From Bacteroidota bacterium (GTDB lineage Bacteria > Bacteroidota > Bacteroidia > JABDFU01), in contig JACPDY010000007.1 in NCBI GenBank assembly GCA_016183775.1, positions 1-45,218 on the forward strand: DNA of 45,218 bases, written 5' to 3'. A program made the translations under genes and the position numbers. Below the pieces are notes generated by a model, which did not search any database, was not told the origin of the DNA, and was given only the letters and a program-made list of their open reading frames with translations. Of this stretch, positions 2,345 to 29,638 are shown in pieces (the stretch's first letter is position 1; each line of letters opens with the position of its first letter).

Positions 2345-5300
2345 TCATGGTGCAGTGAGGTTGATATTCACACTGCACCCGTTTTTATCTTTAATATTTA
2401 CAGTGTAAGCTCCAGGGCAAAGTTGATTTTTATATCTATTGGTATATCCATCGGGCCAGGTATAGCTGTATGGAGTTGTACCGCCATTCGCTGAAACTAT
2501 TAGCCATTCCTTGCAGCCGCAAGCTGCACAGCCTGCAGTGCCTTTGGAAAATTGCCCGATCAATGGCTGGGGTGAAATTACACTTGAAGCAGAAATAGCC
2601 GTACAACCTTTGCTATCTGTGATCGTTACGGTATAACTCCCTGCGCTCAAACCTGAAACCATTGAACCTGAAACCCCATTACTCCAATTATAAGCATAGC
2701 CCGGCGTTCCATTGCTTCCGTTTGCAATTATACTTCCATTTGTTCCGCCATTACAACTTATGTTGGTTGGGGTTACTGTTACACTGACTGCAGGATTAAT
2801 TGTTATTGCTGCCGTTGAAGTGGATGTGTTCCCACCCGTATCTTTTATTGTTACTGTGTAAGTTGTGGTAAGGGTAGGGCAGGGTGATGGTGTACTATTC
2901 TGGGTGGTGGCGCCGGTACTCCACGTATAAGTATAAGGGCTGACACCTCCCGTACCACTTGCAGTTACAGTACCACAGACACCGGAACATACTGAGCTGC
3001 CGGTAGCGGTTACCACAGGCATTGCTGAACAATCGACCACATTGACTACAGATGTTACCGTACCACCCTCCCGGTGGTGCGGCGTAACCACTATAGGGTA
3101 TCGTTGAAACTGTCCATGCGTAATTTGTAGGACTACCACTACCGGTATGTGTAAAATTTACTGTTGTGCCTTTACAAACTGTTCCACCGGGCGATTGTGT
3201 AAAATCTGCTGAAAGTGGAGCTGTGCCGGTTATAGTGAAGTTTTGGGTTGCAGTACATCCTCTGTCATCTGTAACTGTTACAGTATAATTTCCGGCTGTA
3301 AGCCCAATTGTTGATCCTACCAATTGTCCGTTTGTCCAGGTATAATTATACCCTGGTTTTCCGCTTGCGATTGTTACCGCAGCAGAACCGAATGTTGAAC
3401 AACTAATGTTTGTACTGGATGGAATGAGAGCAAGTGGAGTATAAACTATCGGAACACTTCCGTTTATTGTACAACCATTAACATCAGTAATTGTTACACT
3501 GTATGTAACACCTGCATTTAATCCTGTTGGCGTTTGAACGGTTTGCCCATTGCTCCATAAATAAGTATAAGGCAATGTGCCACCACCCACATTTACTGTT
3601 GCTGTTCCTGCATTAGCCGGGCATGACCAGGTTGTTGAAAAAAATAAACTTAATGGTTGGGGTTGAGTAATAATTACAGTTTGTTTATACATGCAGCCTG
3701 CGGCATCAGTAATGGTAACAGTAAATACACCGGACGAAAGACCTGTTGCTGTTGGTGTGTTTTGCCCGCCTGCTGAGGGACTCCACAAATAAGTGTAAGG
3801 CAGAACTCCTCCGGATACAGTTACTGTAGCTGTCGCATTCGTACCACCATTACAAGCTGCATTGGATTGAGTGGCAGTTACAGATAAACCGCTTCCGGCA
3901 GACACCGTTACACTTGTTGTTTTATCAATACAGCCGGAGCTGCTTACTGTAACTAAATAGTTACCGGCACATACACCAGTAATTGTTTGCCCTGTTTGCC
4001 CAGTGTTCCAGAGGTATGAGTATGTAGCGGAACAACCTCCGTTTGGCGTAACAGTAGCACTGCCACTACAGCTGCATCCCGCATTAACAGAGCTTGTAGT
4101 AAGTGTAAGCGGTATGTTTTTAAACTTAGCTATAAAGCTATCATCTTGCCCACCATTAAATGTTCCATTATAATAAGCTCCGCCTCCTGGATTGGTTAAA
4201 GGATAAGTGGCAACATTTGGATTAGATAAGATACTGTTAATTGTATATGCAGTCCATTCCCCTCCAACAAAAAGACTCCCGGCATTATCAACCGCAATAG
4301 GAGATCGGTAATCAAGTCCATCTCCTCCAAAATAGGTTGCCCATAGCAAGTCTCCGGTATTTGAAAATTGTGTAATAAAAATATCAGCACCATAATTCGA
4401 ACCCGTAATGTTCGGATCTCCATTATAAGTGGAGTCATAGTAGCCATTTACATCACAAGATTGCTTGGTTGTAATGGGGACAGCGGGACCATTTGCATTA
4501 GTGTAAGGTGCTGAAAAACTCATATAAACTGTTCCGCAGGAGTCCACAGCTAAATTATCGAATGTAAGAAGCGTAGTGAAAGCTTTGCCATAATAAGTAG
4601 CCCAAAGGCGATTACCTGAATTGTCAAATTTAAGAATGAAGGGTGTATCATGACCAAAAGCTGGGGTGTTGCTAAAATATCCCGGACAAGTAGTGCATAA
4701 AGGGAAGTCGTTTGAACCGGTTGTTCCGGATACAAATACATTGCCACTGGCGTCTGTTGCGATTGAATAACCATAGTCGCCTGTATAGCCTCCATAATAA
4801 GTAGCCCATAAGCGATTACCGGAATTATCAAATTTCAGAATGAAGACATCTCCATTTCTAAAAGTATCAGCCAACGTTCCCTGAAAATATCCGGGGCAAT
4901 TACTACATACAGGGAAATCATCGGAAAGCGTTGTGCCGCTTACAAAAACATTTCCATTGTTATCTGTTGTTATAGCAAAGCCGGTTTCACCCGAAAAACC
5001 GTTACCGGATAGGGCAATTGCATTAGTGCTACCCCCATAAAAAGTAGCCCATAAGCGTACCCCGTTATTGTTGAATTTTAGTATAAAGACATCTCCATTA
5101 CCTCCATAACCCTGAAAATAACCCGCACACGTATTACATACGGGGAAGTTGGCAGAGGAAGTATTGCCGGTAACAAATATGTTACCATTGGAGTCTGTTG
5201 TGATTGAATTGGCAACACCGGATCCATAATAAGTAGCCCAAAGGCGATTCCCTGTATTATCAAATTTCAGGATAAACATACTGCCACCAGTTCCTTGAAA

Positions 5301-6581
5301 ATATGCTCCACCAAAGGGATTGAAAACAGGAAAATTACCTGACCCGGTACGTCCAGTTACAAACACGTTGCCTCCAGCGTCTGCAGTTATGGAGTGCCCC
5401 ATATCATCACCCGTTCCACCATAATAAGTAGCCCATAGCCGAACTCCTGTATTGTTGAATTTAACAATTACTACATCTCCATAGCTATTTCCACCTCCAA
5501 TGATACCCTGGTAATATGCACCAATACTGCTTTGAACAGGATAATTGGCTGAAGTGCTGTAGCCGGTTACTAATACATTTCCCACATTATCTGTTGCGAC
5601 CGACTGAAATCCATCTACTCCTGACCCTCCGTAGAATGTAGCCCACACTAGTTGTGGGTCTATAACAAGGGAATCGTTCGGATCATATTTGCCGGTTTTA
5701 ATAGCTATTTCGTAAGAGAAAAGCCCCTCTCCGGCTCTCCCCGAAGGGGAGAGAGCAGAGTGTCCTTTAGATGGAGCATTACCTGCTCCAGAATATAGTA
5801 GTGAGTAGTTTTTTTTAATTGTATAATGAGATGAGATGGTATTTGATCTACTTTCTTGATAACACAACAACTCTCCTTCGGTAACTTTACCCAAATCGTT
5901 TTCAAACTCTATTTGGTCCCTGTTAACTTTTAGTTTTCCGCTGCCTTCGTAAACTAATTTTATTTGTTTGGGATCGGCATGAGGGTGTACTATAAAATCG
6001 TGCTTCAGGCCCCTTCCGGTTTCCCCTTGCTTGGTTAGCGAAGTATAGAGTACCCAATCAATACCGGGGTAAACTTCTTTAATGGTTATTTTGGAATATG
6101 TTTTTACATTAAAAATTCCATCGGGGCAATGTGTCAGAAAATAATTGATGTTGCCTTGAGTAATATCATCCTGTGTAATAATATTCTCTTTTTTAATTGA
6201 CGCATTTTTCAAAACCATATCTACGTGTTGCCATTCGCCTTTTATTTTTTCACCACCAGATTCCTTTTCTTCATGATTTTCTTCTGAATCGCGTTCCGCC
6301 TCTTCCATTTTTAAAAATTGGTAGGTAAGTCCCTTATTTGTAACCCAAATAATTATGTTAGGTGTTTCGGCCTTAAATAAAACATAAGGAGTGGGCTTAC
6401 CATCCATATCGACCATTTGCCCTTTGTTTTCTTCGAAGCCCAATTGCATCTGATTTTTTACCCATTGCCTGGCTTTAAGTTCAGAGTCTGAATCTTTCAT
6501 TTGGCCATGCGCAGACATGTTGCAGGCAATAAGAAGCCCGACTATAATTAGTAATGATGTATAGTTCTTTAAGTAAATCAT
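2345..6581 (-). CDS. SBBP/SprB-repeat giant surface protein (frameshifted near 3070)
   Basis: The gene starts at 6581 with a signal peptide (LLIIVGLLIACNMSAHGQ) and continues with the N-terminal domain typical of Bacteroidota SBBP proteins (FEENKGQMVDMDG..., ending LVIDPQLVWATFYGG). Seven or eight SBBP beta-propeller repeats follow (GNVFVSGTT...FPVC..CPGYFQG...ILKFDNSGNRLWATYYGG), then SprB-type repeats (PYTYLWSNGQT...YSVTITDVNGCT) and a PKD-like segment. Near the G-rich stretch at 3062-3075 the frame shifts: the first frame runs on as unrelated residues to 2895, while the SprB sequence resumes in the next frame (GGTVTSVVNVVDCSAMP...) and ends at 2345. The intact product would be about 1,410 residues. 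A 28-residue insertion encoded by a palindromic repeat sits near 5735. It is probably an adhesin or cell-surface filament protein, perhaps exported by T9SS, although no classical sorting domain is seen. The frame break may be an assembly error or real decay. Confidence 0.8.
5735..5753. repeat. Palindromic repeat inserted in frame in the SBBP gene
   Basis: A hairpin with arms ctctcccc (5735-5742) and ggggagag (5746-5753) and loop gaa sits in coding sequence, flanked by further CTCT/AGAG complementarity (5727-5730 with 5757-5760). On the coding strand it encodes SALSPSGRAGEGLFS, a residue pattern I associate with a dispersed Bacteroidota palindromic repeat translated in this frame. The second giant protein lacks it at the corresponding place. 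Confidence 0.6.
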
Positions 6582-6588
6582 GGAGTTG

Positions 6589-7214
6589 TTATGTTAGCAT
6601 TACAGTATAAGTACCCGTACAAAGTTGGTTTCTATATCCATCAGAGCAGATATAGCAGTAGGGTTTTGTCCTGCCTGTGGAGTTACCATCACCCACTCTT
6701 TACAACCACAATCGGCACATGCCGCAGTGCCTTTGGCATATACCGTACCTCTGCATATCATTGCCGAATTTATTGTGGCGGTGATACTTCCGCAGACATT
6801 AACAGTAATGTAACTATTCTTAATTAAAGAATCTTTTTCACAGGGTGTAACAACTAACTTAACTCTATAGGTTCCGGCTGTATTATAAACAATGCCTGTC
6901 GGATTTTGTAAAGTAGATGAAGATGGAGTGCCGCCTGTGAAAGCCCATTGCCAGCTGGTGGCAGCTGCGTCACACGAACTAACTGTGCTTTGGTTGGTAA
7001 AGCTGAGGATATTTCCTGCATAAATAGTTGTATTGGTAGTAAATGCTATTGCGGGTTTGCCTGCATCTCCGCACCCCTTTCTGCAAAGCTTGGCAATGGT
7101 CATGCCACCAGGCGATATGCCTGTACCTGTAGACAAGAAGGTGATCTGCCTGCTTCCGGAATTACAATTATTTTTTCTTTTAAAATTCATTTTCATGTAC
7201 CAGGCAATTTGCAT
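6589..7214 (-). pseudogene. Fragment of a third repeat-protein paralogue (PKD plus Cys-rich C-terminal module)
   Basis: The readable part contains a PKD-like domain (SFTNQSTVSSC...WQWAFTGGTPSSSTLQNP...YNTAGTYRVKLVV). It is followed by the module KGTAACADCGCKEWVMVTP that also ends both neighbouring giant proteins. After QNP the frame breaks: the conserved tail PYCYICSDGYRNQLCTG-TYTV continues in another frame to a TAA at 6589-6591, eight bases before the next gene starts. The N-terminus lacks a signal peptide and any upstream repeats. This looks like the remnant of a larger surface-protein gene, with the start at 7214 only nominal. A genuine short secreted protein is unlikely because no export signal is visible. 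Confidence 0.6.
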
Positions 7215-7403
7215 TCAATATTATTGACTACGTTTCGAAAGAGATTCAATTGTAATAAAGGTTGTAAATAAATAGCCTTAAAGCAAACCAAAAATCACTT
7301 AAAATTACTTTATCAATTGTTAAAATAGCGGTATCAATAATAAAATACTAATAATTTCAAATTGAAATTTGTATATTTATTTTGGTAAAAAATAACAACG
7401 AAA

Positions 7404-8969
7404 ATGAAAACTCCATCCGACGAACTTTTTGTGTTGATCAAGGGTATGAATGCGCACGAAAAGCGCATTTTTAAGCTAAATTCAACGAAAAATAACATTG
7501 GTTCACAAAGTAAAACATACCTGAGAATTTTTGACATCATCAATAGACAAAAAAAATATAATGAAAAAGAATTGATTTTAAAATTGAAAGAAAGCGGAGG
7601 CGCTCTTAATTTTTCAAAGTCTAAAAATTACCTTTTTAAAGCTTTATTGGATTGTCTCGCTGTGTGTCATTCCCATAGTAACACATCCTTCAATTTGCGA
7701 ACCCTTATTTCTCAGGCGGAATTGCTATTCAGCAAAGGCCTACTTAAGACCGCTATGAAATTAATTGTTAAGGCAAGAAAAATAGCCTTGCAAAATGAAA
7801 GCTATGCCTATTTGAATATCATTAATAATATTTATTTAAACATTTTGCTCAGCGGACTTTATTCAAAGGATTTGAAAAAATATACAGAAAAGGGAATTGC
7901 AGAAAGCATAAATTATGTTGACCACCTTAAAAATCACCTTGAATTAAAAAATCTTCAGATGAGAATGTTTCAATTGTGTCATGAAAGCCAGGTGAAAGGC
8001 ACTACTGACCTGCAAGAGGTTAAAAAAATTCTGAGGTCGCCGTTATTGTCATCTCCGGAAATGGCGATCTCTTATCCTTCTAAAATATCTTATTATAATG
8101 CGCATTATGCCGGAGCTTTATTGTTGGGAGATAATTCCGAAAGGGAATATGCCAGGAAAAAGGAATGGTTGCACTATCTTGAATCGGATAAAAACAAACT
8201 GGAACTTCGTGCTGAAAGTTACCTGATAGCTATTTCCGGGTTAACGCTGACATTGCAGTCAAATCCTGCTCTTCCCTACCGGGAAGAAGAAGTTGGTTCT
8301 TTATACAACAGGACGACAAATTATTATTCCGGTCTTTCATCAAGAGGGAAAACAAACCATGTTTCAATAACTTATTTGCACATCCTGGTAAATTTCATGA
8401 GTGCCTTTTTAAAGATGGGTATGCCTTCGGAGGTTTTAAATGTAATGAACGAGATAAAATTACATGAAGCATATAAGGAGGGTTTGAAAGAAACAACCAA
8501 AATATTATTGTATAATAATTTTTTCACAGGCTATTTTATCAACAAACAATTTCGTGAAGCTTTAAGATGGCTTACAAAGATTATTCATTCGAAAAGTGAT
8601 TCGTGGATAGAGATACAGTCAGATGCAAGAAGATTCCTGTTAATGATCCATTATGAGTTAGGGAACTATGACCTGCTTGTTTCCGTCGCAAAAAACGCAA
8701 AGCGATTCATGATAAAGAATAACTATTACAATGAATTTGAAAAGGCGATGATCGATCTTTTTGTGAAGGACCTGCCGGCTGCTGAAAATAAAAAGGAAGA
8801 AGCGGAAGCCTTTAAATCGTTAAGACAAAAGATCGGGGCATTGAACAAAAAGAACAAACAGATACCGGCCTTGCGGAATTTCAATTACATCTGGTGGCTT
8901 GATAGCAAGATCGAGGATCGTCCTTTTATAGAGATCATTAAGATGAAGGGAGAAACAGTGAGAAGCTGA
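7404..8969 (+). CDS. Cytoplasmic alpha-helical (TPR-like) repeat protein
   Basis: A 521-residue protein without signal peptide or membrane segments. The sequence is strongly helical with degenerate TPR-like pairs, for example LLFSKGLLKTAMKLIVKARKIALQNESYAYLNIINNIY and NFFTGYFINKQFREALRWLTKIIHSK. The N-terminus (SDELFVLIKGMNAHEKRIFKLNS) resembles a family often seen in Bacteroidota near SprB-type surface-protein genes, for which I know no assigned function. It is transcribed opposite to the flanking repeat proteins and converges on the second one with an 18-bp gap. A scaffold or regulatory role is possible from the fold, but none can be stated. Confidence 0.7.
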   Translation: MKTPSDELFVLIKGMNAHEKRIFKLNSTKNNIGSQSKTYLRIFDIINRQKKYNEKELILKLKESGGALNFSKSKNYLFKALLDCLAVCHSHSNTSFNLRTLISQAELLFSKGLLKTAMKLIVKARKIALQNESYAYLNIINNIYLNILLSGLYSKDLKKYTEKGIAESINYVDHLKNHLELKNLQMRMFQLCHESQVKGTTDLQEVKKILRSPLLSSPEMAISYPSKISYYNAHYAGALLLGDNSEREYARKKEWLHYLESDKNKLELRAESYLIAISGLTLTLQSNPALPYREEEVGSLYNRTTNYYSGLSSRGKTNHVSITYLHILVNFMSAFLKMGMPSEVLNVMNEIKLHEAYKEGLKETTKILLYNNFFTGYFINKQFREALRWLTKIIHSKSDSWIEIQSDARRFLLMIHYELGNYDLLVSVAKNAKRFMIKNNYYNEFEKAMIDLFVKDLPAAENKKEEAEAFKSLRQKIGALNKKNKQIPALRNFNYIWWLDSKIEDRPFIEIIKMKGETVRS

Positions 8970-8987
8970 TAATAGTTGCCGGTAAGT

Positions 8988-11900
8988 TTATGGCGCCGAC
9001 AAGTTAACATTTATACTGCACCCGTTTTTGTCCTTAATATTGATCGTGTAAGCTCCCGGACACAACTGATTTTTGTATCTGTTTACATAACTATCCGGCC
9101 AGGTGTAAGAGTAGGGGCTTGTTCCTCCGGTGCCGGTTACCATGATCCACTCTTTGCATCCGCAGGAGGCGCAATTGGCGGTACCTTTCGTAAACTGTCC
9201 GGCAAAAGGTGGAGGTGAAATCAAAGAAGTTGTGAAAGTCGCGGTACATCCTTTTGAATCAGTAGCTGTTACAGTGTAACTGCCCGAGTTAAGGCCTGTG
9301 GCTGTGGATGTGGTTTGTCCGTTACTCCAGGTGTAAACATAAGGTGCAGTACCGTTTCCGGCTGAGGCGAATACTGAGCCGTCAGCTCCCCCGTTACAAC
9401 TTATACCTGTTGCAGTGGTTGTAAGATTTACAGCCGGATTGATCATTACTATAGCTGTTGATGTGGAAGTGCTCCCTCCGGCATCTCTTATGGTAACCGT
9501 ATAAGTAGTTGTTGCCGAAGGACACGGGCTGATGTTTTGTGTGGTTGCGCCATTGCTCCAGGAGTAGGTATATGGACTTGTTCCTCCGGAGCCGCTGGAG
9601 GTAGCTGTAGCGCAGGACCCGGGACACACAGAGCTGCCTGTAGCTGTAACTGTTGGGGCCGCGCAGTTAGTTATGTATACATTCCTTGTAACAGTTGCCG
9701 TACAACCGGCGTTAGTAACGGTATGGGTAACAGTATATGTGCCGGCAGACAAAAAAGTATAAGAAAAATTTGTAGTTGTGCCTGATACCAAACCAGGAGT
9801 GATCGACCATGAATGTGTACCAGTTGTACCGGTGTGAGTAAAAATTACTGCGGTATTTGTACATGCATTTATTTTTGATTGCGTAAATGTGGCTGATACA
9901 GGATTGGTTCCTGTGATGGTAAATATTTTTGTTTGTGAACATCCATTACCGTCCGTAACTGTTACGGTATAATTGCCTGCTACTAGTCCGTTTGTGGTTG
10001 GACCGGTTGCTCCATTGCTCCAGGTGTATAAATAAGGTGTGCTAACACCAACAGTGACAGATGCGCTGCCGGTTGTTGTACAACTATTATTTACACTTGA
10101 TGTGCCGGTGATAGGCGGATTAGGCTGGGTAATTTGTACAATCGAAAGGATCTTGCACCCATTGGCATCTGTTACAGAAACAGTATAAGTACCTGCAGTG
10201 AGGCTACCGGCAGTGGCATTTGTTCCAGCTGCAGGGGACCAGCTGTAGGTGTATGGAGCTGTTCCTCCTGTTACATTTGCTGTTGAACTGCCTGTATTTC
10301 CGCCGTAGCACTGAACATTTGTCTGCGATTGAGTAATAGCCAGGCCGCTTGGTGAGGTAATTTTTACAGTATCAGGATATGGCTTGCAATTGTAGGTCAG
10401 GGTAACATTATGTATTCCTGCACACAGGCCGGTTGCCGTTTGGGTGGTTTGTCCGTTACTCCATGAATACATTACACCTGCAGCAGCCGGGTTTCCGCAC
10501 TGAACAAACAATGAGGCCGTAGCGGTGCCATTACATGAACAGCTGGCCGGAGTTATTGCCTTTGCAATTGAGTCGGTTGCTTGTCCTGCAACATCAATGG
10601 AAGTAACAAATTTTTCGCCGCAGGCATACAGTGTTTTCCCTTTATATCCTATGGCTACATCGTGTACTGTATCCAGATTGGATGGAAGATTAATCACATT
10701 GGTTTGCACCAAAGAAGTATTGAATACCTTGATCGTTGTCTGGTATCCAACATATAATCTTTCACATGCATCTACATCTATCCCACACCAAAAAGTTTTC
10801 ACAGAGGTTCCAATGCCTCCTGCAACAATTACAGGGGGCAGAATAGCATTGCTGGTTATTAAAGCACCTGTAGTTTTATTGAATTTGGAAAGTGTATACC
10901 CATCCCACATATAAACTCCGTTGTTTCCCGCTGTCATAATATTCATTCCATTTTGAAATGAACCGGCATATCGGTTATGCGATTGCTCCGAAAATTGGTA
11001 TCCATTGTTAACGTTAAATAATGTAGGTGTAAGGGGGGGTAAGGGTAGTTTAACTAAAACATTATAGGGGATTCTAAAACAACAAGCCATATAGCAAGTT
11101 GTTCCGGCAGGGTCAATTGCAACACCGACCATATCGCGACTGCTCGATGGGGCAGCAACCACATTCAGAAAGTTGAATCCGGTTAAATTTGTATTTATTA
11201 TAGCACCCTGATAGCGCCCGGCTGTGCCCCCTGTGCCCCCTCCTCCAATTACTATCTGATCGGTGCAGGGATTCCATACAGCGCGCCAGAACTCTCTCAC
11301 ACTTCCGGCAATAGGTGCGGGAGAAAAGTAAGTTCCCATTAGTCCACCTGTTGTTGAAACTTTTTCAACGCTGCCTGCGGTACCTCCGCCTATGCCGACA
11401 ATAAAACTATTCCCGGTCACCCTGTCAACTGTAAAATCACAATACAGTGTTGTTGGAATATAGGTCCATATCAATGCCCCTACACTATTCAATTTAACAA
11501 GACGGGAACTTGTACCCGAATAAACATTTCCATTGTAATCGTAATCGATGTCCCATCCATCTGCCGTACCTCCGAATGGATTTGTGATCCAGGGGTCTAT
11601 CACAAGCGTTTTGTTTGCATCATACGAGTCGGGGAGAACGAATGATGAGCCCTGCCGCTTCAAATTAAATTTTGTGAATATTTTGCGGTCCGTTTCTCCT
11701 TCATAATAACTTACCGGTGCGTGATCAATAAAATCACCCATTTCAGTTTTTATAATTACATCACCTTCTTTACTTTCTTTAAGAGATCTTGCTCCGATGT
11801 ATATAGTTTTTACTTTTGTGACGTCTGCTCCGGGATGCACAATAACAGTATATTTTAATCCTTCTTTATCTTTTGGAAAAATATATTCCACATCAATTCC

Positions 11901-12401
11901 TGGGTAAAGATTCCGATACGTTATTTTTTTGAACACATTTGCTTCCAACGATGAGGCGGGTCCGGTGGCATAAACAAAATAGTCGGATCGTTTTTCTGAA
12001 GCCTCTATAGTCACATCGGGATTCGCTCCTTCCCACAAAATTTTAAAGTAATGTGTTTTGCGTATTTTGAAAGCTTCCTGTTCAGCTTCTTCATTTTCTT
12101 CTTTAGCATCTCTCTTTTTAGGATATTCATCATAACGGTAAGTCAAGCCCTCAGAAGTAAAATAGGCCTTAACGGCCCCCAGTTCGGCACCGTACCATAC
12201 CCTGGTATCGGATTTTAATAATGTATCGAACTGCCCACGATTCTCAATAAATACTTTTCCTTCAAAGGGATTAACTTTCCAGTTGATCTTGTGTTTTTGA
12301 GGTGGGTTGTTTTCGGAGGTGCGCGAAAAAAATGCTCCGTTCTGACCGAAAGTTGTATTCCATGAAAATAATATAACCAATACCAAATAGTTAACTTTCA
12401 T
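8988..12401 (-). CDS. SprB-repeat surface protein with PKD domain
   Basis: An intact 1,137-residue protein. A signal peptide (MKVNYLVLVILFSWNTTFGQ) is followed by the SBBP-type N-terminal domain (GKVFIENRGQFDTLL...LVIDPWITNPFGG) and a propeller-like middle region of about residues 280-640. Then come several SprB repeats (APYTYSWSPAAG...YTVSVTDANGC) and a PKD-like segment (SATFTQSKINACTNTAVIFTHTG...YTFLSAGTYTVTHTV). The end is the Cys-rich module GTANCASCGCKEWIMVTG...NRYKNQLCPGAYTINIKDKNGC. There is no classical T9SS type A tail. It is a close domain-level paralogue of the protein at 2345-6581 and shows where that gene's frame should run. By analogy with SprB it may act in adhesion or gliding at the surface. 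Confidence 0.85.
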   Translation of the reverse strand: MKVNYLVLVILFSWNTTFGQNGAFFSRTSENNPPQKHKINWKVNPFEGKVFIENRGQFDTLLKSDTRVWYGAELGAVKAYFTSEGLTYRYDEYPKKRDAKEENEEAEQEAFKIRKTHYFKILWEGANPDVTIEASEKRSDYFVYATGPASSLEANVFKKITYRNLYPGIDVEYIFPKDKEGLKYTVIVHPGADVTKVKTIYIGARSLKESKEGDVIIKTEMGDFIDHAPVSYYEGETDRKIFTKFNLKRQGSSFVLPDSYDANKTLVIDPWITNPFGGTADGWDIDYDYNGNVYSGTSSRLVKLNSVGALIWTYIPTTLYCDFTVDRVTGNSFIVGIGGGTAGSVEKVSTTGGLMGTYFSPAPIAGSVREFWRAVWNPCTDQIVIGGGGTGGTAGRYQGAIINTNLTGFNFLNVVAAPSSSRDMVGVAIDPAGTTCYMACCFRIPYNVLVKLPLPPLTPTLFNVNNGYQFSEQSHNRYAGSFQNGMNIMTAGNNGVYMWDGYTLSKFNKTTGALITSNAILPPVIVAGGIGTSVKTFWCGIDVDACERLYVGYQTTIKVFNTSLVQTNVINLPSNLDTVHDVAIGYKGKTLYACGEKFVTSIDVAGQATDSIAKAITPASCSCNGTATASLFVQCGNPAAAGVMYSWSNGQTTQTATGLCAGIHNVTLTYNCKPYPDTVKITSPSGLAITQSQTNVQCYGGNTGSSTANVTGGTAPYTYSWSPAAGTNATAGSLTAGTYTVSVTDANGCKILSIVQITQPNPPITGTSSVNNSCTTTGSASVTVGVSTPYLYTWSNGATGPTTNGLVAGNYTVTVTDGNGCSQTKIFTITGTNPVSATFTQSKINACTNTAVIFTHTGTTGTHSWSITPGLVSGTTTNFSYTFLSAGTYTVTHTVTNAGCTATVTRNVYITNCAAPTVTATGSSVCPGSCATATSSGSGGTSPYTYSWSNGATTQNISPCPSATTTYTVTIRDAGGSTSTSTAIVMINPAVNLTTTATGISCNGGADGSVFASAGNGTAPYVYTWSNGQTTSTATGLNSGSYTVTATDSKGCTATFTTSLISPPPFAGQFTKGTANCASCGCKEWIMVTGTGGTSPYSYTWPDSYVNRYKNQLCPGAYTINIKDKNGCSINVNLSAP

Positions 12402-12487: not shown

Positions 12488-14167
12488 TTACCTGAACACA
12501 ACCAGTTTGTCCTGCCGAAGTATCGTTTCAGGTGAACGGATAACGAAATAATATATCCCGTTCATAACGCCGTTCGCTGCTAAATCAAGGAAGTTTTTGG
12601 ATTCCGCTAACTTTTTACTGCATACAAGCTGTCCCGTCATCGAATATAATCTGAACTCCACCTGTAACTGAATGTTTTGTTTTGCTTGATCGAATTCAAT
12701 TGTGATAGTTCCATTATTTGGGTTGGGATAAACCGCTAAAGAAAAATTTTCGATCAGCTTATTAATACCTGAACAGTCGTTGAGTTTAACATGAGCCGTT
12801 TTTGACGTAGTTGAACAAATTCCTTTGGTGACAATGACAGAGTAATCTCCGGTTACGGAGGCGGTATAAGATGATAATGTTGCGCCATTTACATCGGATC
12901 CATTGAGCTGCCATTGATAAGTTAAATTGTTCCCGGTTAATGCCTGCAGCTTTAATGTTGCTCCGCAGGAAACAAGTGTATCGGTGATTGAGAAAAATGC
13001 CACCGGCTTACAGGAAGAAGTATCAATCAGGTGCCAGATCTTTCCGCTCGAATTCCCGGTAAGATATAACTCTCCGGCATCATCTTCGCCAAACGCGCTG
13101 TAATCATTCTTTGTAAAGCTTCCGATGGTATCGGTTACAAATGTGCTTGTTCCTGTACGTCGTATAGACCAGATGCGTCCGCTGCAAAAGTCGGTAAAGA
13201 AATACCTGCCAAACATATTGTTGTATTGTGTTCCGCGGTATACATACCCGCCTGTTACCGAACAGCCATTGCCCGAATTATGAGGATAGTTGAAGACCGG
13301 AGAGGTATAGTTTGACAACGGTCCGCAACCGCCGGTGTTGTAGTTACTTGTAGCTTCATAACACCTCCATCCGTAATTTTCACCGCCTGGTGATGAGCCG
13401 GGCTGAAAATCTATTTCTTCATAAATATTCTGCCCTACATCCGCGATCCACATATCTGCTGTGATCCTGTCAAAACTGCAGCGCCAGGGGTTGCGCAGTC
13501 CCAGTGACCATATCTCTTCCTTAACACTTGTTTGTCCCACTAATGGATTGTCTGCCGGGATCGAGTATTTTATGCCCGTGAACGGATCAATGCGCAGCAT
13601 CTTCCCAAGGAATACATTTTTATTCTGCGCGTAATTATTGGGGTCTCCTCCACTTCCACCATCACCCTGCGAAATGTATAAATATCCGTCTTTGCCAAAC
13701 ATCATATTGCCGCCGTTGTGATTGGTATATGGCTGAGTAAATTGCAACAATATCAGTTCACTGCCCGGCAGTGCCTTATTTGAGTCAGCAGGATCAACGG
13801 AATAACGGGCAATGACAGTGTATCCGGCACTGGTGCCACCTGTATAATTCACAAAAAAATATCCGTCGGTTTTATAATTCGGACTGAAAGCGAGTCCCAG
13901 TAAACCCTGTTCATTTCCGACGGAGTTCACTTTACTTGTTATATCAAGAAATAGGGTAGGGTTCACAACCCCTGTTTTACTCATAATGCTTATTGTGCCT
14001 GATTGATTGACAACAAATAGTCTTGAATCGCTGCAATGTTTTATATCGGTCGGTCTTGTAAAACCTGAAGCGATCTGAACCGGGTAAAGTTTTGGTTTTT
14101 GAGCAACCCCGGCCAGGCAAATTATGAATAAGGCGTACGTAATATTTTTTCGGATAATGTTATACAT
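12488..14167 (-). CDS. Secreted PQQ-dependent sugar dehydrogenase-like protein with T9SS tail
   Basis: A 559-residue protein. A signal segment (YALFIICLAGVAQ) is followed by a six-bladed glucose/sorbosone dehydrogenase propeller, about residues 25-380. Family motifs include GLLGLAFSPNY, NHNGGNMMFGKDGYLYISQGDGG, IWSLGLRNPWRCSFD, WIADVGQNIYEEID and ENYGWRCYE. An Ig-like segment follows (SCGATLKLQAL...YQWQLNGSDVNG...SVIVT), then a type A T9SS sorting domain (FSLAVYPNPNNGTITIEF...YSMTGQLV...GIYYFVI). In the family this domain oxidises aldoses with PQQ and bound calcium, so it probably acts at or outside the outer membrane. PQQ biosynthesis genes are not in the window. Many such Bacteroidota proteins have unproven substrates. 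Confidence 0.9.
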   Translation of the reverse strand: MYNIIRKNITYALFIICLAGVAQKPKLYPVQIASGFTRPTDIKHCSDSRLFVVNQSGTISIMSKTGVVNPTLFLDITSKVNSVGNEQGLLGLAFSPNYKTDGYFFVNYTGGTSAGYTVIARYSVDPADSNKALPGSELILLQFTQPYTNHNGGNMMFGKDGYLYISQGDGGSGGDPNNYAQNKNVFLGKMLRIDPFTGIKYSIPADNPLVGQTSVKEEIWSLGLRNPWRCSFDRITADMWIADVGQNIYEEIDFQPGSSPGGENYGWRCYEATSNYNTGGCGPLSNYTSPVFNYPHNSGNGCSVTGGYVYRGTQYNNMFGRYFFTDFCSGRIWSIRRTGTSTFVTDTIGSFTKNDYSAFGEDDAGELYLTGNSSGKIWHLIDTSSCKPVAFFSITDTLVSCGATLKLQALTGNNLTYQWQLNGSDVNGATLSSYTASVTGDYSVIVTKGICSTTSKTAHVKLNDCSGINKLIENFSLAVYPNPNNGTITIEFDQAKQNIQLQVEFRLYSMTGQLVCSKKLAESKNFLDLAANGVMNGIYYFVIRSPETILRQDKLVVFR

Positions 14168-23055: not shown

Positions 23056-25158
23056 GTGAAAAGAATAGCAGCCGTCCTCTTATTATTTGTTCTGGGTTTA
23101 AAGATTAGTACAGCACAAATTGCATCAGGCAAGGATCAATTGTACAATAAGCTGTATCAGCAGGAAGAACTGACGGTTGATATGACCAACCCCGAATACG
23201 TTGGTCTGGTTTTAGATAAGATACATGAGTTTAAAAATCTCCGATCAATTGAATTCGAAGGCGAAGCCAACGAAAACACTTTAAAGAAAGTTTTTTACCG
23301 GCTCTCTGTTTTAAAAAACCTTGCAAACATAACCTTGCGCGACAATGAACTAAAGAAGATGCCGGACAATGTTAAGAACATTAAAACTTTAACATCTTTA
23401 ACAATTGAAGGCAACAATAATCTTGATTTTGATGATATGTTTGATAAACTTTCAGAGATCAACCTTGTCGGATTAAAATTGATCGACAATGATTTTAAAA
23501 ATGATCCTAAAGGGATATCGGAAATAAGCTCGCTGAGAAGTTTAACGCTCAGCGGAAGCAGCCGGTTGAATTATGAAAAACTGATAGATAACCTGTCAAA
23601 GCTGCCTGCATTGGATTCTCTTTCCCTTCCTATAAATTTTATTACTCAGCTGCCCCAGAATATTTTCCGGCTAAAATCGTTAAAGCAATTGGATGTAAGC
23701 AACAACGTACTCAGTGAATTGCCAGAAGGAGTATCATCCTTAAAAGCTATAAACAATTTAAGTATTAATGGTAATATTATTGTAAACCAATTTCGGGAGC
23801 TGGAAAAATTCAGGGATGCTGACATTAAATATTTGTCAATTGATAAGGAGATCAGCGGGGATGAAATTGAGCAAATAAAAAGGATGTTTCCCAAAGCTGA
23901 AATCAACTACCCTGTATATGAAGAGGATGATGATTCACAGATGACTGCCATTGTTCCTGCTACAGATAGAATTGTCCCTAAAAAAACTGAAGAAAAAGCG
24001 GGGAACCTTGTAGTAAAAAAGGATTTCAGCATACTGTCGGCAGCGTATCTTAATTACCCGGATATTTTCCGGTCGGTACACTACAATTTTGACACACTTT
24101 TGTTCAACGAACGATACGCTGACGCCTCTTATATAAATACCACAAAACGTGTTAGGAGTAATTATGCTGGGGGACGGTTCTCGCTTTACAAAATGAAGGG
24201 TAGGAGAAAGGAGGTCGCTTTCAATATTGGTTCAAGGTATTCCAGAGCGATCGATTTCAATGAGCTGACTGCCTTTAACGGTATGCATTGGGTGTATAAC
24301 GGTGAATTAACTAAAAAACAATTTTTAAAAAAATATATTAAGAAAAAGGAGTGGAATGATGTTCGCATCAGCTTCGATAATAATAACAGCCAGTTTTCAA
24401 TTGAGCTCAAAAATGACAAGGGCTTTGAAAAAATAAGCGCATATCCGATCTATAATAAAGGTACACTGGAAAAAAGTCGTGAAGCATACAACAGGAGATT
24501 CTCCAACTACCAGAAAGCATTGGTGCGACGGGCCAAAAGATTTGAGAAAAATCTCTTAAAGGATAAGAAAAGATACGATAACGATTACATTTTAGTTAAG
24601 CAAAAGGCCTGGGACGAATTGCTACTGCAAATGAGCAATGAAGAACGTGTAATGACCGAGAAGCAATGGTTGGAATATTACGACAATATTATTACCAATG
24701 AGAAGCTGGCATTAAATAATTCTTCCCTTCAACTGGAGTATTTTGAAAGAGGTATGAAGATCAGGGGTTATAACAGCACAATTCTCAGGAACAATAACAG
24801 CAAGAAGTCACAAATAACCTATGGAAAACTTATAAGTGTTTCGGTTGAATTTATTGATGAGAATGGCGGCGGAAAATTGGCTGTAAAAAATGTTATTACC
24901 ATAGATAAAATGGGAAACCGTTATTATCAGAGTGAAGGAGGACTCGGGTTGTCGCCCAACAATATTATATTCTGGCAAAATGCTAATAATGTAATTATTG
25001 TAGAACTCAGGAATGGTACATTGGGGATTGTGTCTACTTCAGAAATAAACAGTAAGAAAATACCTGTTAAATCAGAGCTACTCGAATTGAAAACAAAGGT
25101 GCTGGATAAGAACCTCGATACGATGGCGGATATTTTTAAAACGATCGGTCTGGAGTAA
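23056..25158 (+). CDS. Secreted leucine-rich-repeat protein
   Basis: A 700-residue protein that starts with GTG; the signal peptide KRIAAVLLLFVLGLKISTAQ follows directly, which supports this start. Residues about 50-270 are leucine-rich repeats (LKNLANITLRDNELKKMPDNVKNIKTLTSL, LKSLKQLDVSNNVLSELPEGVSSL). The C-terminal half is not recognised: it is rich in Lys, Tyr and Asn and contains a basic coiled-coil-like stretch (KALVRRAKRFEKNLLKDKKRYDNDY). It precedes a sigma-factor gene by 99 bp in the same direction and may belong to the same expression unit. The role is unknown; LRRs suggest protein binding in the periplasm or at the surface. Confidence 0.8.
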   Translation: MKRIAAVLLLFVLGLKISTAQIASGKDQLYNKLYQQEELTVDMTNPEYVGLVLDKIHEFKNLRSIEFEGEANENTLKKVFYRLSVLKNLANITLRDNELKKMPDNVKNIKTLTSLTIEGNNNLDFDDMFDKLSEINLVGLKLIDNDFKNDPKGISEISSLRSLTLSGSSRLNYEKLIDNLSKLPALDSLSLPINFITQLPQNIFRLKSLKQLDVSNNVLSELPEGVSSLKAINNLSINGNIIVNQFRELEKFRDADIKYLSIDKEISGDEIEQIKRMFPKAEINYPVYEEDDDSQMTAIVPATDRIVPKKTEEKAGNLVVKKDFSILSAAYLNYPDIFRSVHYNFDTLLFNERYADASYINTTKRVRSNYAGGRFSLYKMKGRRKEVAFNIGSRYSRAIDFNELTAFNGMHWVYNGELTKKQFLKKYIKKKEWNDVRISFDNNNSQFSIELKNDKGFEKISAYPIYNKGTLEKSREAYNRRFSNYQKALVRRAKRFEKNLLKDKKRYDNDYILVKQKAWDELLLQMSNEERVMTEKQWLEYYDNIITNEKLALNNSSLQLEYFERGMKIRGYNSTILRNNNSKKSQITYGKLISVSVEFIDENGGGKLAVKNVITIDKMGNRYYQSEGGLGLSPNNIIFWQNANNVIIVELRNGTLGIVSTSEINSKKIPVKSELLELKTKVLDKNLDTMADIFKTIGLE

Positions 25159-25257
25159 GATAAGTTTAATCTATTGAATATTAGTCATTTATACACATAG
25201 CTTCATTTCATTGTATCTTTTGATCATTCGTTCAGTTATTAATACAAAACACGGATA

Positions 25258-25830
25258 ATGACTTTGAATGCAGCATATCACCTAACCCCGGAGCAGATCA
25301 ATAAGGAAGCCGATCTTATCCGGCAGGCGAAGGAAGATCCTTCAAAATTCGCACTCCTGTATAATAAGTACCATGAGCAGATTTTTCTGTTCATAGTAAG
25401 AAGGGTAGAGTCGAAGGATGATGCGGCAGATATTACATCACAGGTTTTTTTAAAGGCCATGTTAAACCTTAAAAAATACCAGCCGCAGGGAATTCCTTTT
25501 GGTTCCTGGTTATACCGTATCGCACGTAATGAGATCTATGATCAGAACGCACGAAATATAATAAGTATGGTATTAACTGTTGAAAAGGAGGGCGTTCGTG
25601 AAATGGCCGCTGAAATAGAAGGAGAGAATAATTCAGAGGAAAAGTATAATCAATTACAGAATGCGCTCACCACACTTTCTGAAGATGAATTGGAAATTAT
25701 TGAGTTGCGTTATTTTGAAAAACATTCATTTAAGGAAGTAGGAGAAATAGTAAATATCACGGAGAATAACGCGAAGGTTAAAACCTACAGGATATTGGAG
25801 AAACTTAAAAATAATTTTACCCATGAATAA
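25258..25830 (+). CDS. ECF-type RNA polymerase sigma factor
   Basis: A 190-residue sigma-70 family protein. Region 2 spans about residues 31-100 (FALLYNKYHEQIFLFIVRRVESKDDAADITSQVFLKAM...PFGSWLYRIARNEIYD). Region 4 spans about 135-188 (LSEDELEIIELRYFEKHSFKEVGEIVNITENNAKVKTYRILEKLK), a good helix-turn-helix. Its last 8 nt overlap the next gene, whose product has a single membrane segment, the usual arrangement of a sigma factor and its membrane partner. The following PorP/SprF gene makes envelope or T9SS genes plausible targets. Confidence 0.92.
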   Translation: MTLNAAYHLTPEQINKEADLIRQAKEDPSKFALLYNKYHEQIFLFIVRRVESKDDAADITSQVFLKAMLNLKKYQPQGIPFGSWLYRIARNEIYDQNARNIISMVLTVEKEGVREMAAEIEGENNSEEKYNQLQNALTTLSEDELEIIELRYFEKHSFKEVGEIVNITENNAKVKTYRILEKLKNNFTHE

Positions 25831-27553: not shown

Positions 27554-28546
27554 ATGCAAAAGACACTAAAAATAATAGCACTGACACTTCTATGCGGAGT
27601 TTCATTTGCGCAGCAAGACGCACAGTTCAGTCAAAACATGTTCAACAAACTACCTGTCAACCCGGCTTATGCAGGAACCGATGGCGCCATTTGTGGAACA
27701 GTATTGTTGAGACAACAATGGGAGAATTTCCCAGGTGCTCCCAGAACAGGACTGATAGCACTTGATGCTCCTGTATTTCAGTCAACTCCATTTCACGGTG
27801 GTGCGGGCTTAACGTTTTGCCAGGACCAGCTTGGTTTTGATAAAACCACATTTGCTAAAATCTCCTATTCCTATCATAGAGCATTATGGGCAGGGACTGT
27901 AGCCCTGGGATTTGAGGCAAGCATGATGCAAAAGCAATTGAACGGAGTATGGATTGCGACCGATCCTGTTGCTCAGGACGCCTCAATTCCCGATATTAAT
28001 ACCGGAGGAAGGAAATCGTATGATCTCGGACTGGGTGTTTATTATACCAATCCAATAGGCATGTATTTCGGTATTTCATCCACTCATTTAACTCCTTCTT
28101 CATTTAAATTAAAAGCCCCTGCAGCTAATGGCAATCCGCTGAATGTACCTGATGATTACAGCTTCGTAAATGCAAAGCATGTGTATGTAATGGCTGGTTG
28201 CCCATTCCCGGTTTCAAGGAATGCGGAGGTTATCCCTTCTGTTTTAGCGAAGACAGACCTGACTTCAACACAGCTTGATCTGAATGTAAGGGTTGTTTGG
28301 CAAAAAAGGGTATGGGGAGGTGTTTCGTACCGTTTAACGGATGCTGTTGTGGCAATGGTAGGTTTTCAAAATGGAGGATTCAGATTTGGTTATTCATTTG
28401 ATATGACCACATCAGCCATAAGAAATTACAGCAACAACACGCATGAGATCATGGTAGGCTATTGCTACCAACCACCCATACGGGTAAAACGTACAATGCA
28501 CGACAACATACGTAATATGAATTTCAGGAATGGGGAAATGGAGTAA
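27554..28546 (+). CDS. PorP/SprF-family type IX secretion membrane protein
   Basis: A 330-residue protein with a signal peptide (IIALTLLCGVSFAQ) and the family start QQDAQFSQNMFNKLPVNPAYAGTDGAICGTVLLRQQWENFPGAPRTGLIALDAPV. An outer-membrane beta-barrel pattern follows (alternating strands, WGGVSYRLTDAVVAMVGFQNGGFRFGYSFDMTTSAI, ending near HEIMVGYC). In this family PorP/SprF proteins assist export or surface attachment of T9SS cargo such as SprB. The SprB-type proteins earlier in the window are candidate clients, although the genes are 15 kb apart. It lies 186 bp after the sigma/membrane-protein pair in the same direction. Confidence 0.93.
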   Translation: MQKTLKIIALTLLCGVSFAQQDAQFSQNMFNKLPVNPAYAGTDGAICGTVLLRQQWENFPGAPRTGLIALDAPVFQSTPFHGGAGLTFCQDQLGFDKTTFAKISYSYHRALWAGTVALGFEASMMQKQLNGVWIATDPVAQDASIPDINTGGRKSYDLGLGVYYTNPIGMYFGISSTHLTPSSFKLKAPAANGNPLNVPDDYSFVNAKHVYVMAGCPFPVSRNAEVIPSVLAKTDLTSTQLDLNVRVVWQKRVWGGVSYRLTDAVVAMVGFQNGGFRFGYSFDMTTSAIRNYSNNTHEIMVGYCYQPPIRVKRTMHDNIRNMNFRNGEME

Positions 28547-28585: not shown

Positions 28586-29638
28586 TTATTTTATAGAATT
28601 ATTTATAATAAGAAGTGCTCTTGTCTCAATATTAAGTACCTGGCTTTGGATACTTGTTAATAAAGTAACAGCCCCCGATAGCGGAGTCATATAGAACATT
28701 GATTCGTGCCAGGTGGTTGTGGAAGATTCGTCAATATTCATGTTATCCTTGATCTTGAGATCAAGCCCGTTGAAGGACAAGAGCTTTTGTTCTGCTTTTT
28801 CCATTTTAAGTTCTGTAAGGATGGCAATAATTTGTTGGTTATAGTTATTTAAGGATTCATACAAATCTCGACCATTCGAACTTTCGGCCTGGCCTAAAAA
28901 ATGAGTCGGAATATCGTAATTATCTAAGCCGGTCATATTCCAGTGATCCGATGTGCCGTCAACGGGCTGATAACTTACATGGGCGATCAATTCATTTTTT
29001 AATTGTTCAACATTTTTAATTGTTTGGTTTGATAGTACATTGATCGCCACAGATGCGTCCCGTAAATGCTGATAGTTTTCGGCGTTTCCCTGAGTTCTGA
29101 GTTTTATGTTAGCCAACAGTAAAGTGTTTATTTCTTTAGTGTTCTCATTTGTCTTCAGTAAAGCGTCTTCTATTTTTAAATAGGTATATAAAATATTTTT
29201 CGAATAATTAAGGCCATAGACAAAAAAGAATACACTTACGAATAGAGTAAGAAATACCATTCTCCAGAATTCGCTGAATTTTCTGTCATATTCCTGGTAC
29301 TGTTGGATTGTGTATAATATTAAAGTGGGAAACACTAATAATGACGATCCCATAACTATCATGAGTCCACCCCCGGGCCAGTGCATAACCTTGAATAATA
29401 CACCAGTAAACAGTGATGAAATGGAGAGAAATCCGAAAATATTTACAAATATATTTAGCCCACTTCTGTTTTCATATATTCTTTGCCCGAAAAAAAATGG
29501 AAGAAAGATCATTGAAAGTAATGACATTCCGAATGTCAAAAGAATGCCCGCACCAGGCCAATGCATCAGTTTAAACATTGACCCAATGCTAATAAAGAAC
29601 ATAACGAACGCTCCAAAAGCAATTAAGAATTTTTTCAT
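28586..29638 (-). CDS. GldL-like membrane protein with GldM-like periplasmic region
   Basis: A 350-residue protein with five hydrophobic segments. Two tandem units each contain the GldL signature FK-[LV]-MHWPG-[AG]-G (residues about 22-31 and 82-91), each between two membrane segments; a fifth segment lies at about 128-145. The remaining 200 residues are predicted periplasmic. They contain HLRDASVAINVLSNQTIKNVEQLKNEL and end TWHESMFYMTPLSGAVTLLTSIQSQVLNIE, which resembles the first periplasmic domain of GldM (P-L-x-A-x-x-L-L-x-x-I-Q-x-x-V-x-N-x-E). GldL and GldM form the proton-driven motor of T9SS and gliding. The combination in one chain is unusual. The gene converges on the PorP/SprF gene. 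Confidence 0.65.
   Translation of the reverse strand: MKKFLIAFGAFVMFFISIGSMFKLMHWPGAGILLTFGMSLLSMIFLPFFFGQRIYENRSGLNIFVNIFGFLSISSLFTGVLFKVMHWPGGGLMIVMGSSLLVFPTLILYTIQQYQEYDRKFSEFWRMVFLTLFVSVFFFVYGLNYSKNILYTYLKIEDALLKTNENTKEINTLLLANIKLRTQGNAENYQHLRDASVAINVLSNQTIKNVEQLKNELIAHVSYQPVDGTSDHWNMTGLDNYDIPTHFLGQAESSNGRDLYESLNNYNQQIIAILTELKMEKAEQKLLSFNGLDLKIKDNMNIDESSTTTWHESMFYMTPLSGAVTLLTSIQSQVLNIETRALLIINNSIK

Follow-up and report, generated by a model that had tools for sequence, protein, structure and literature searches.

Three classes of signal for the type IX secretion system (T9SS), A, B and C, are described in the consulted sections of a review (PMC10202324). According to these sections, type A C-terminal domains (CTDs; TIGR04183 / PF18962) have an immunoglobulin (Ig)-like fold, and the third class, the type C CTD (ChiA type, cl41395), has a sequence distinct from A and B and, on a chitinase, makes up roughly the C-terminal 100 residues (PMC10202324). 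For Flavobacterium johnsoniae, the accessible part of one study states that type A CTDs use PorV, that type B CTDs (TIGR04131 / PF13585) require cognate PorP/SprF shuttles and that three orphans with more than 44% identity use one PorP/SprF shuttle in common (PMC12618676). The DNA analysed here (contig JACPDY010000007.1 of the Bacteroidota bacterium assembly GCA_016183775.1, positions 1 to 45,218; this whole stretch of 45,218 nucleotides is referred to as the window) encodes a cysteine-rich module of 70 residues at the very end of large repeat proteins. Judged from sequence comparisons, the module is probably (at about 0.55) a T9SS-type sorting or anchoring domain that evolved from an SprB repeat and takes the place of the type B CTD. 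This makes it a candidate for a further T9SS signal class. No description of it was found in the literature searched, most subscription papers being outside reach.

In the window, two open reading frames (ORFs) of the reverse strand, 8988–12401 and 2345–3139, end with the consensus KGTxxCxxCGCKEW...YSYTWPDxYxNRYKNQLCPGAYT(V/I)NIKDKNGCS(V/I)N(V/I)NL(S/T)AP. The module copies and their carrier genes are:

8991..9200, (-) strand: intact 70-residue C-terminal module, followed immediately by the stop codon; the AlphaFold2 model is Ig-like.
8988..12401, (-) strand: intact carrier gene (1137 residues) with a DUF7948 N-terminus, SprB repeats, a weak PKD match and the terminal module.
2348..2557, (-) strand: complete copy of the module, terminal in ORF 2345–3139.
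2345..6581, (-) strand: carrier gene split by a frameshift into ORF 2895–6581 (DUF7948, SBBP, SprB) and ORF 2345–3139 (SprB, module).
6589..6734, (-) strand: broken module remnant with a frame change inside the module, ending before the last strand (coordinates set by eye).
6600..7214, (-) strand: short remnant carrier ORF (204 residues) with a PKD domain ahead of the broken module.

The original prediction of three neighbouring proteins with a shared module was correct as to the module itself, and among the three copies only 8988–12401 is an intact gene. ORF 2345–3139 and ORF 2895–6581 lie in different frames and represent one split gene, the former its 3' end and the latter the portion coding for the N-terminus. 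The third copy is a broken remnant. ORF 6600–7214 contains KGTAACADCGCKEW in its own frame, and the YRNQLCTGTYTV part is found in another frame with a stop before the last strand. Two details of the predicted motif are revised. In both complete copies the module extends past QLCxGxYTV by about 17–18 residues (NIKDKNGCS...NLxAP), and the spacing proposed as Y-x4-D is actually Y-x3-D (YTWPD). The proposed lack of a known T9SS tail was confirmed for ORFs 8988–12401 and 2345–3139, neither of which matches TIGR04183 or TIGR04131.

The module is by no means limited to these three neighbours. The genome of origin (4.54 Mb, 164 contigs) holds at least 146 places that match the 70-residue query at E below 1e-12. 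This is a lower bound, as 150 of 1083 candidates were scored, the last of them weakly; it omits the second piece of one broken copy (C50), three matches with E values of 9e-10 to 6e-9 and the remnant 6589–6734. Chance is excluded, since 140 of the 146 places score E 7.5e-31 or better. In 140 of the 146 copies the stop codon directly follows the module, and the other six extend by 4–23 residues. The DNA fetched from this genome contains 143 matches to the pattern C-x(2,6)-C-x-C-x-x-W, none at an internal position; 127 occurrences start 61 residues before the end of the protein, 11 start at 63 and 5 at 45–64. The module-carrying ORFs add up to 431,961 bases, i.e. 9.5% of the genome.

Two metagenome-assembled genomes (MAGs) of the same genus contain the module as well, JAEUTS MAG-335 (taken as G002) with 52 matches and JADLGT SJ452 (taken as G003) with 19, both equated on the basis of matching coordinates. 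All 51 full-length copies tested in these congeners end at a stop codon (51 of 53 loci were used, L151 and L152 being partial; alignment A3 comprises 49 of the 51 plus the two window copies). No module match at 1e-10 is present in the congeners G001, G004 and G005, which are 65, 72 and 56% complete, respectively. At the same threshold, 28 of 60 genomes match the query, namely the own genome, the two congeners and, more weakly, 25 others of the class. The latter matches may represent SprB repeats. The best match outside the genus (E 1.9e-20) belongs to a genome of the same class with 16 matches (G028). A widespread occurrence of the full module was rejected, as 1 of 395 genomes of the phylum matches at E ≤ 1e-16 and this is the own one. 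A scan of genome contigs, with patterns that miss strongly diverged forms of the module, gave strong matches from two MAGs only among its best 80 (the own genome possibly left out). Its 26 weaker loci (L153–L178) are SprB-like repeats without CxxCxCxxW, and none is at a protein end in the open frames seen, L160 being cut by the contig end. The full module was seen only in the own genome and the two congeners.

An N-x-G-Q motif near the start, as in DUF7948 proteins, is found in 95 of 104 full-length carriers, and 85 have a signal-peptide-like start according to a crude hydropathy rule. In two of the module-less congeners, the DUF7948 proteins end differently: TIGR04131 is present on 13 of 16 DUF7948 ORFs in G001 and on 20 of 30 in G004 (33 of 46 together), and the C-termini that were read display the type B signature PNGDGxND...DRWG. 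The 13 ORFs without TIGR04131 include one with a type A-like tail and, among those fetched, three that run off the contig or the fetched end. In the own genome, by contrast, the 83 DUF7948 ORFs listed (of 140 matches in all) comprise 64 with the module, 6 with TIGR04131 and none with both. Seven of the 13 ORFs with neither tail run off a contig end and two stop early, which leaves four. Conversely, the module is absent from all 49 TIGR04131 ORFs of this genome. The N-terminal parts of the carriers vary; five carriers tested have no DUF7948 match and other N-terminal parts. Some copies are preceded by non-SprB sequence (PKD in window ORF 6600–7214; also L122 and L146). Thus, the tail is portable, and it is terminal and does not co-occur with the known signal.

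The module shares with the type B CTD its place in the homologous DUF7948 proteins of congeners, the C-terminal location on adhesin-like repeat proteins and the T9SS background of the genome. As is usual for a type B CTD, it comes last in large, putatively surface-exposed proteins (140 of 146 own copies, 51 of 51 congener copies tested). It differs in length (70 versus about 85–95 residues), in the lack of any sequence relation and in the lack of an adjacent PorP/SprF gene. Module-less G004 possesses its own set of DUF7948 genes with closely similar type B CTDs (loci L196–L209), a parallel expansion with the ordinary signal. A literature search on DUF7948 or the SBBP repeat turned up only a Leptospira study.

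The T9SS genes expected alongside a sorting domain accompany the module in the own genome. SprA was found in G000–G004 and not in G005 (56% complete). The own genome furthermore has five PorV-family matches (four above the cut-off), 18 PorP/SprF matches, of which two are pieces on C17, and at least 150 matches to type A and 49 to type B CTDs. The two points proposed for checking, a C-terminal position and the presence of a T9SS, both agree with the original prediction. Neither a mostly internal position nor matches outside putatively secreted proteins were found, given the terminal position, the T9SS genes and the placement of the module where relatives carry the type B CTD.

By sequence, the module is a diverged SprB repeat. 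Profile comparison with hhalign aligns its columns 27–74 with ordinary SprB repeats (probability 98.0, E 1.9e-13). The earlier proposal of a distinct terminal sorting domain is supported by the position, but the module is not foreign to such repeats. The SprB family PF13573 matches 49 of 51 modules at E ≤ 1 (best 6.4e-7); the window module alone reaches 16.1 bits, below the Pfam cut-off of 28 bits. In contrast to SprB repeats, the module is strictly terminal. Where such repeats usually start with CNGG...G, it has CxxCxC-K-[EQ]-W, and it has a conserved NRYKNxLCPG loop in addition. AlphaFold2 predicts an Ig-like module that resembles the repeat before it, with a mean confidence score (pLDDT) of 91.2 for the pair and 84.0 for the module alone. 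Confidence is lower in the loop that holds the motif (block means of 72–82). Five cysteines are kept, two of which match ordinary SprB cysteines in the alignment whereas three are extra. Their odd count points to a free thiol or to a bond with another partner.

Known CTDs were tried as relatives. The module as a type B CTD was rejected (hhalign probability 0.4; no TIGR04131 match in 51 modules at E ≤ 1), as was the module as a type A CTD (four local type A tails gave an hhalign probability of 0.4; no NCBIfam match in the 51 modules). NCBIfam as a whole gave no CTD match for these 51 modules. The type A CTD is similar in being C-terminal, in its length and in its Ig-like fold, which is predicted for the module too, yet there is no sequence relation. 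The type C CTD can be set beside the module by description only. Fold searches of the PDB indicate a general Ig/PKD likeness; no T9SS CTD is among the 50 matches listed for the module alone, which does not imply exclusion. The best solved relative of the pair of SprB repeat and module is provided by the Ig repeats of Grappling hook protein A (GhpA) from Aureispira (9flw_A; Z 9.4, root-mean-square deviation 4.5, 143 aligned; profile match E 2.2e-10). The matched GhpA parts are internal repeats and not a terminal domain, and the Z score is barely above that of general Ig domains (9.0 and below).

Across the last 250 residues, conservation is highest in the tail. An alignment of 128 C-termini shows C10, C13, C15, W18, Y30, W34, R41, C47, D57, C61 and P70 at a frequency of 1.0 (to two decimals). 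On average, the commonest residue of a column has a frequency of 0.83 over the last 37 columns, of 0.71 over the preceding 70, which straddle the module start, and of 0.55 and 0.47 further upstream. The median DNA identity of the 114 copies of exactly 70 residues is 74%, and 2000 random pairs of these have a median synonymous divergence (dS) of 1.65 and a median nonsynonymous divergence (dN) of 0.157. Recent duplication of the copies was rejected on the basis of these two values. With synonymous sites near saturation and the protein sequence held, the copies are old and under purifying selection.

The reading as a sorting or anchoring domain is based on the terminal position, the mutual exclusivity with type B CTDs, the replacement of the latter, the selection on the tail and the T9SS genes. 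Secretion, receptor, anchoring and regulation we infer as follows. In a greatly expanded adhesin family, the module would have displaced the type B CTD. The carrier protein would exit via Sec, and the Ig-like module, pinned by its cysteines, would fold in the periplasm. There its near-invariant surface would be recognised by the T9SS translocon and by one shared receptor or shuttle; the carrier would then be moved outward and held on the surface by the same receptor. The choice of adhesins to be produced may lie with proteins of the BT2802 family, whose genes are divergent to the leading gene in many clusters. That diverse cargoes carry so uniform a module is compatible with one shared receptor or shuttle; most type B CTDs have cognate PorP/SprF partners, and the uniform module would fit a single receptor instead. 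The fullest version, a new T9SS sorting class of one genus with a single receptor that displaces type B and serves a switchable coat of about 146 adhesins with RusR-like divergent regulators, is tentative and has somewhat less than even odds. If true, a further T9SS class standing in for an established one in homologous proteins would illustrate how a cargo domain can give rise to a secretion signal, and it would offer a clean test of the features recognised by the T9SS translocon and shuttles. The coat would be drawn from the roughly 146 adhesins, with clusters under their own divergent RusR-like regulators. Nearly a tenth of the genome is devoted to proteins with one tail, and a putative local regulator stands at the head of many of them, which raises the question of how the bacterium chooses its surface.

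Several observations weigh against a sorting role. The own genome retains 49 TIGR04131 matches, so any replacement of the type B CTD is partial. The crude hydropathy rule is failed by 19 of the 104 full-length carriers. The three module-less congeners are only 56–72% complete. No PorP/SprF gene adjoins a module gene in the own genome (on a shared contig, the nearest is about 11.8 kb away, on C100), and in a tree of 52 PorP/SprF proteins no clade clearly goes with the genomes that have the module. Cysteines also abound in the first SprB-like repeat of the carrier proteins (CSCxG...CAG...C); the extra cysteines are therefore not unique to the tail. Finally, being built from an SprB repeat, the module may be just a specialised terminal repeat.

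This last point leads to the main rival, a structural or adhesive cap. The terminal SprB-like domain would close the stalk or would bind or cross-link neighbours via its cysteines, and export would depend on another part of the protein. The clear homology to SprB repeats and the predicted Ig-like fold, the same as in the preceding repeat, agree with a cap, as do the five cysteines at a frequency of 1.0 in 128 copies, whose odd number would suit a free thiol. A cap leaves unexplained, however, why homologous congener proteins end with a type B CTD and why the tail is the best conserved part of the last 250 residues; it is considered rather unlikely. The cysteines could alternatively belong to a metal- or redox-responsive domain in which CxxCxC and C47 bind a metal or switch disulfides and the terminal position is incidental. 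All 128 aligned copies retain CxxCxC, but the five cysteines include the canonical SprB positions, the model is less certain in the motif loop (72–82), no metal-site family matched the module in profile library searches and the fixed distance to the stop codon would have no explanation. Such a domain is improbable. Most improbable of all is that the tails are alike through late copying only, as a by-product of recent gene amplification. The copies do occur in strings (37 of 104 have a same-strand module gene upstream) and some are broken, yet synonymous sites are near saturation with the protein sequence held, upstream repeats are much less conserved and different N-terminal parts have the same tail.

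The window contains one PorP/SprF gene outside the usual pairing with a type B CTD gene:

27554..28546, (+) strand: PorP/SprF-family outer-membrane protein without an adjoining type B CTD gene; candidate receptor.

In the tree, this orphan and the orphan G000:C131 cluster with their counterparts from G002 and with a single gene from a module-less congener. The gene 27554–28546 as a possible module receptor is consequently a lead at most. A PorP/SprF clade confined to module genomes was rejected, as the label needs 13 changes on the tree; of the genomes compared, G003 is incomplete. Adjoining this PorP/SprF gene, window 28586–29638 (-) encodes a 350-residue fusion of a GldL N-terminal part and a GldM N-terminal part, both under the NCBIfam cut-offs. 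The fusion is perhaps a small variant of the T9SS motor.

Two frameshifted or truncated carriers are present in the window (2345–7214). In the own genome, 17 of the 121 module ORFs whose 5' side is contained in the fetched DNA have fewer than 850 residues. The broken carriers may be pseudogenes, phase variation or assembly errors, which are indistinguishable from the present sequence.

Between the remnant and the intact carrier lies a gene of a different kind:

7404..8969, (+) strand: BT2802-family (NF058569) helical-repeat protein of 521 residues; putative local regulator.

It is divergent from 6600–7214 (189 bp between the start codons) and convergent with 8988–12401 (18 bp between the ends). 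The match to NF058569 covers profile positions 3–501 of 502 (E 2e-30), i.e. full-length homology, at 106.3 bits, which is under the curated cut-off of 550. The fetched own DNA contains 67 stretches of this family of about 520 residues (loci L021–L099). All 25 members that were aligned match NF058569 (best 3.8e-62) and are 18–42% identical to the window member. Directly upstream of the full-length module genes, a divergent BT2802-family gene is found in 47 of 104 cases (median 212 bp), another module gene on the same strand in 37 and neither neighbour type in the fetched DNA in 20; a BT2802-family gene on the same strand is found in none of the 104. Counted from the other side, 48 of the 67 stretches are divergent on the 5' side of module genes within 900 bp and 39 are convergent on the other side within 600 bp. 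The putative regulator family has expanded along with the adhesins. It is also widely distributed, with at least one member in 46 of 60 genomes searched (at most 25 candidates scored per genome). In module-less G001, a member is located beside a DUF7948 gene (C11), so the pairing with adhesins may be older than the module.

We take BT2802 to be RusR. In the accessible part of a study on Bacteroides thetaiotaomicron, RusR regulates the ribose locus BT2803–2809 (PMC12596196). RusR thus controls a sugar locus, whereas the neighbours here are adhesin-like genes and no sugar genes. Local control of adhesin clusters by BT2802-family proteins would be the simplest reading.

The gene directly upstream of 8988–12401, at window 12488–14167 (-), codes for a protein resembling glucose/sorbosone dehydrogenases; its ordinary type A CTD provides an in-window contrast to the module. 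On the other side, a WG-repeat protein (1547–2248) and a Kelch-type protein (121–1251), both (-), are encoded beside the module genes. Kelch-like ORFs are found near module genes at L076 and L064 too (likeness judged by eye). Further away, window 23056–25830 (+) encodes a leucine-rich-repeat protein, followed by a sigma-70-type factor.

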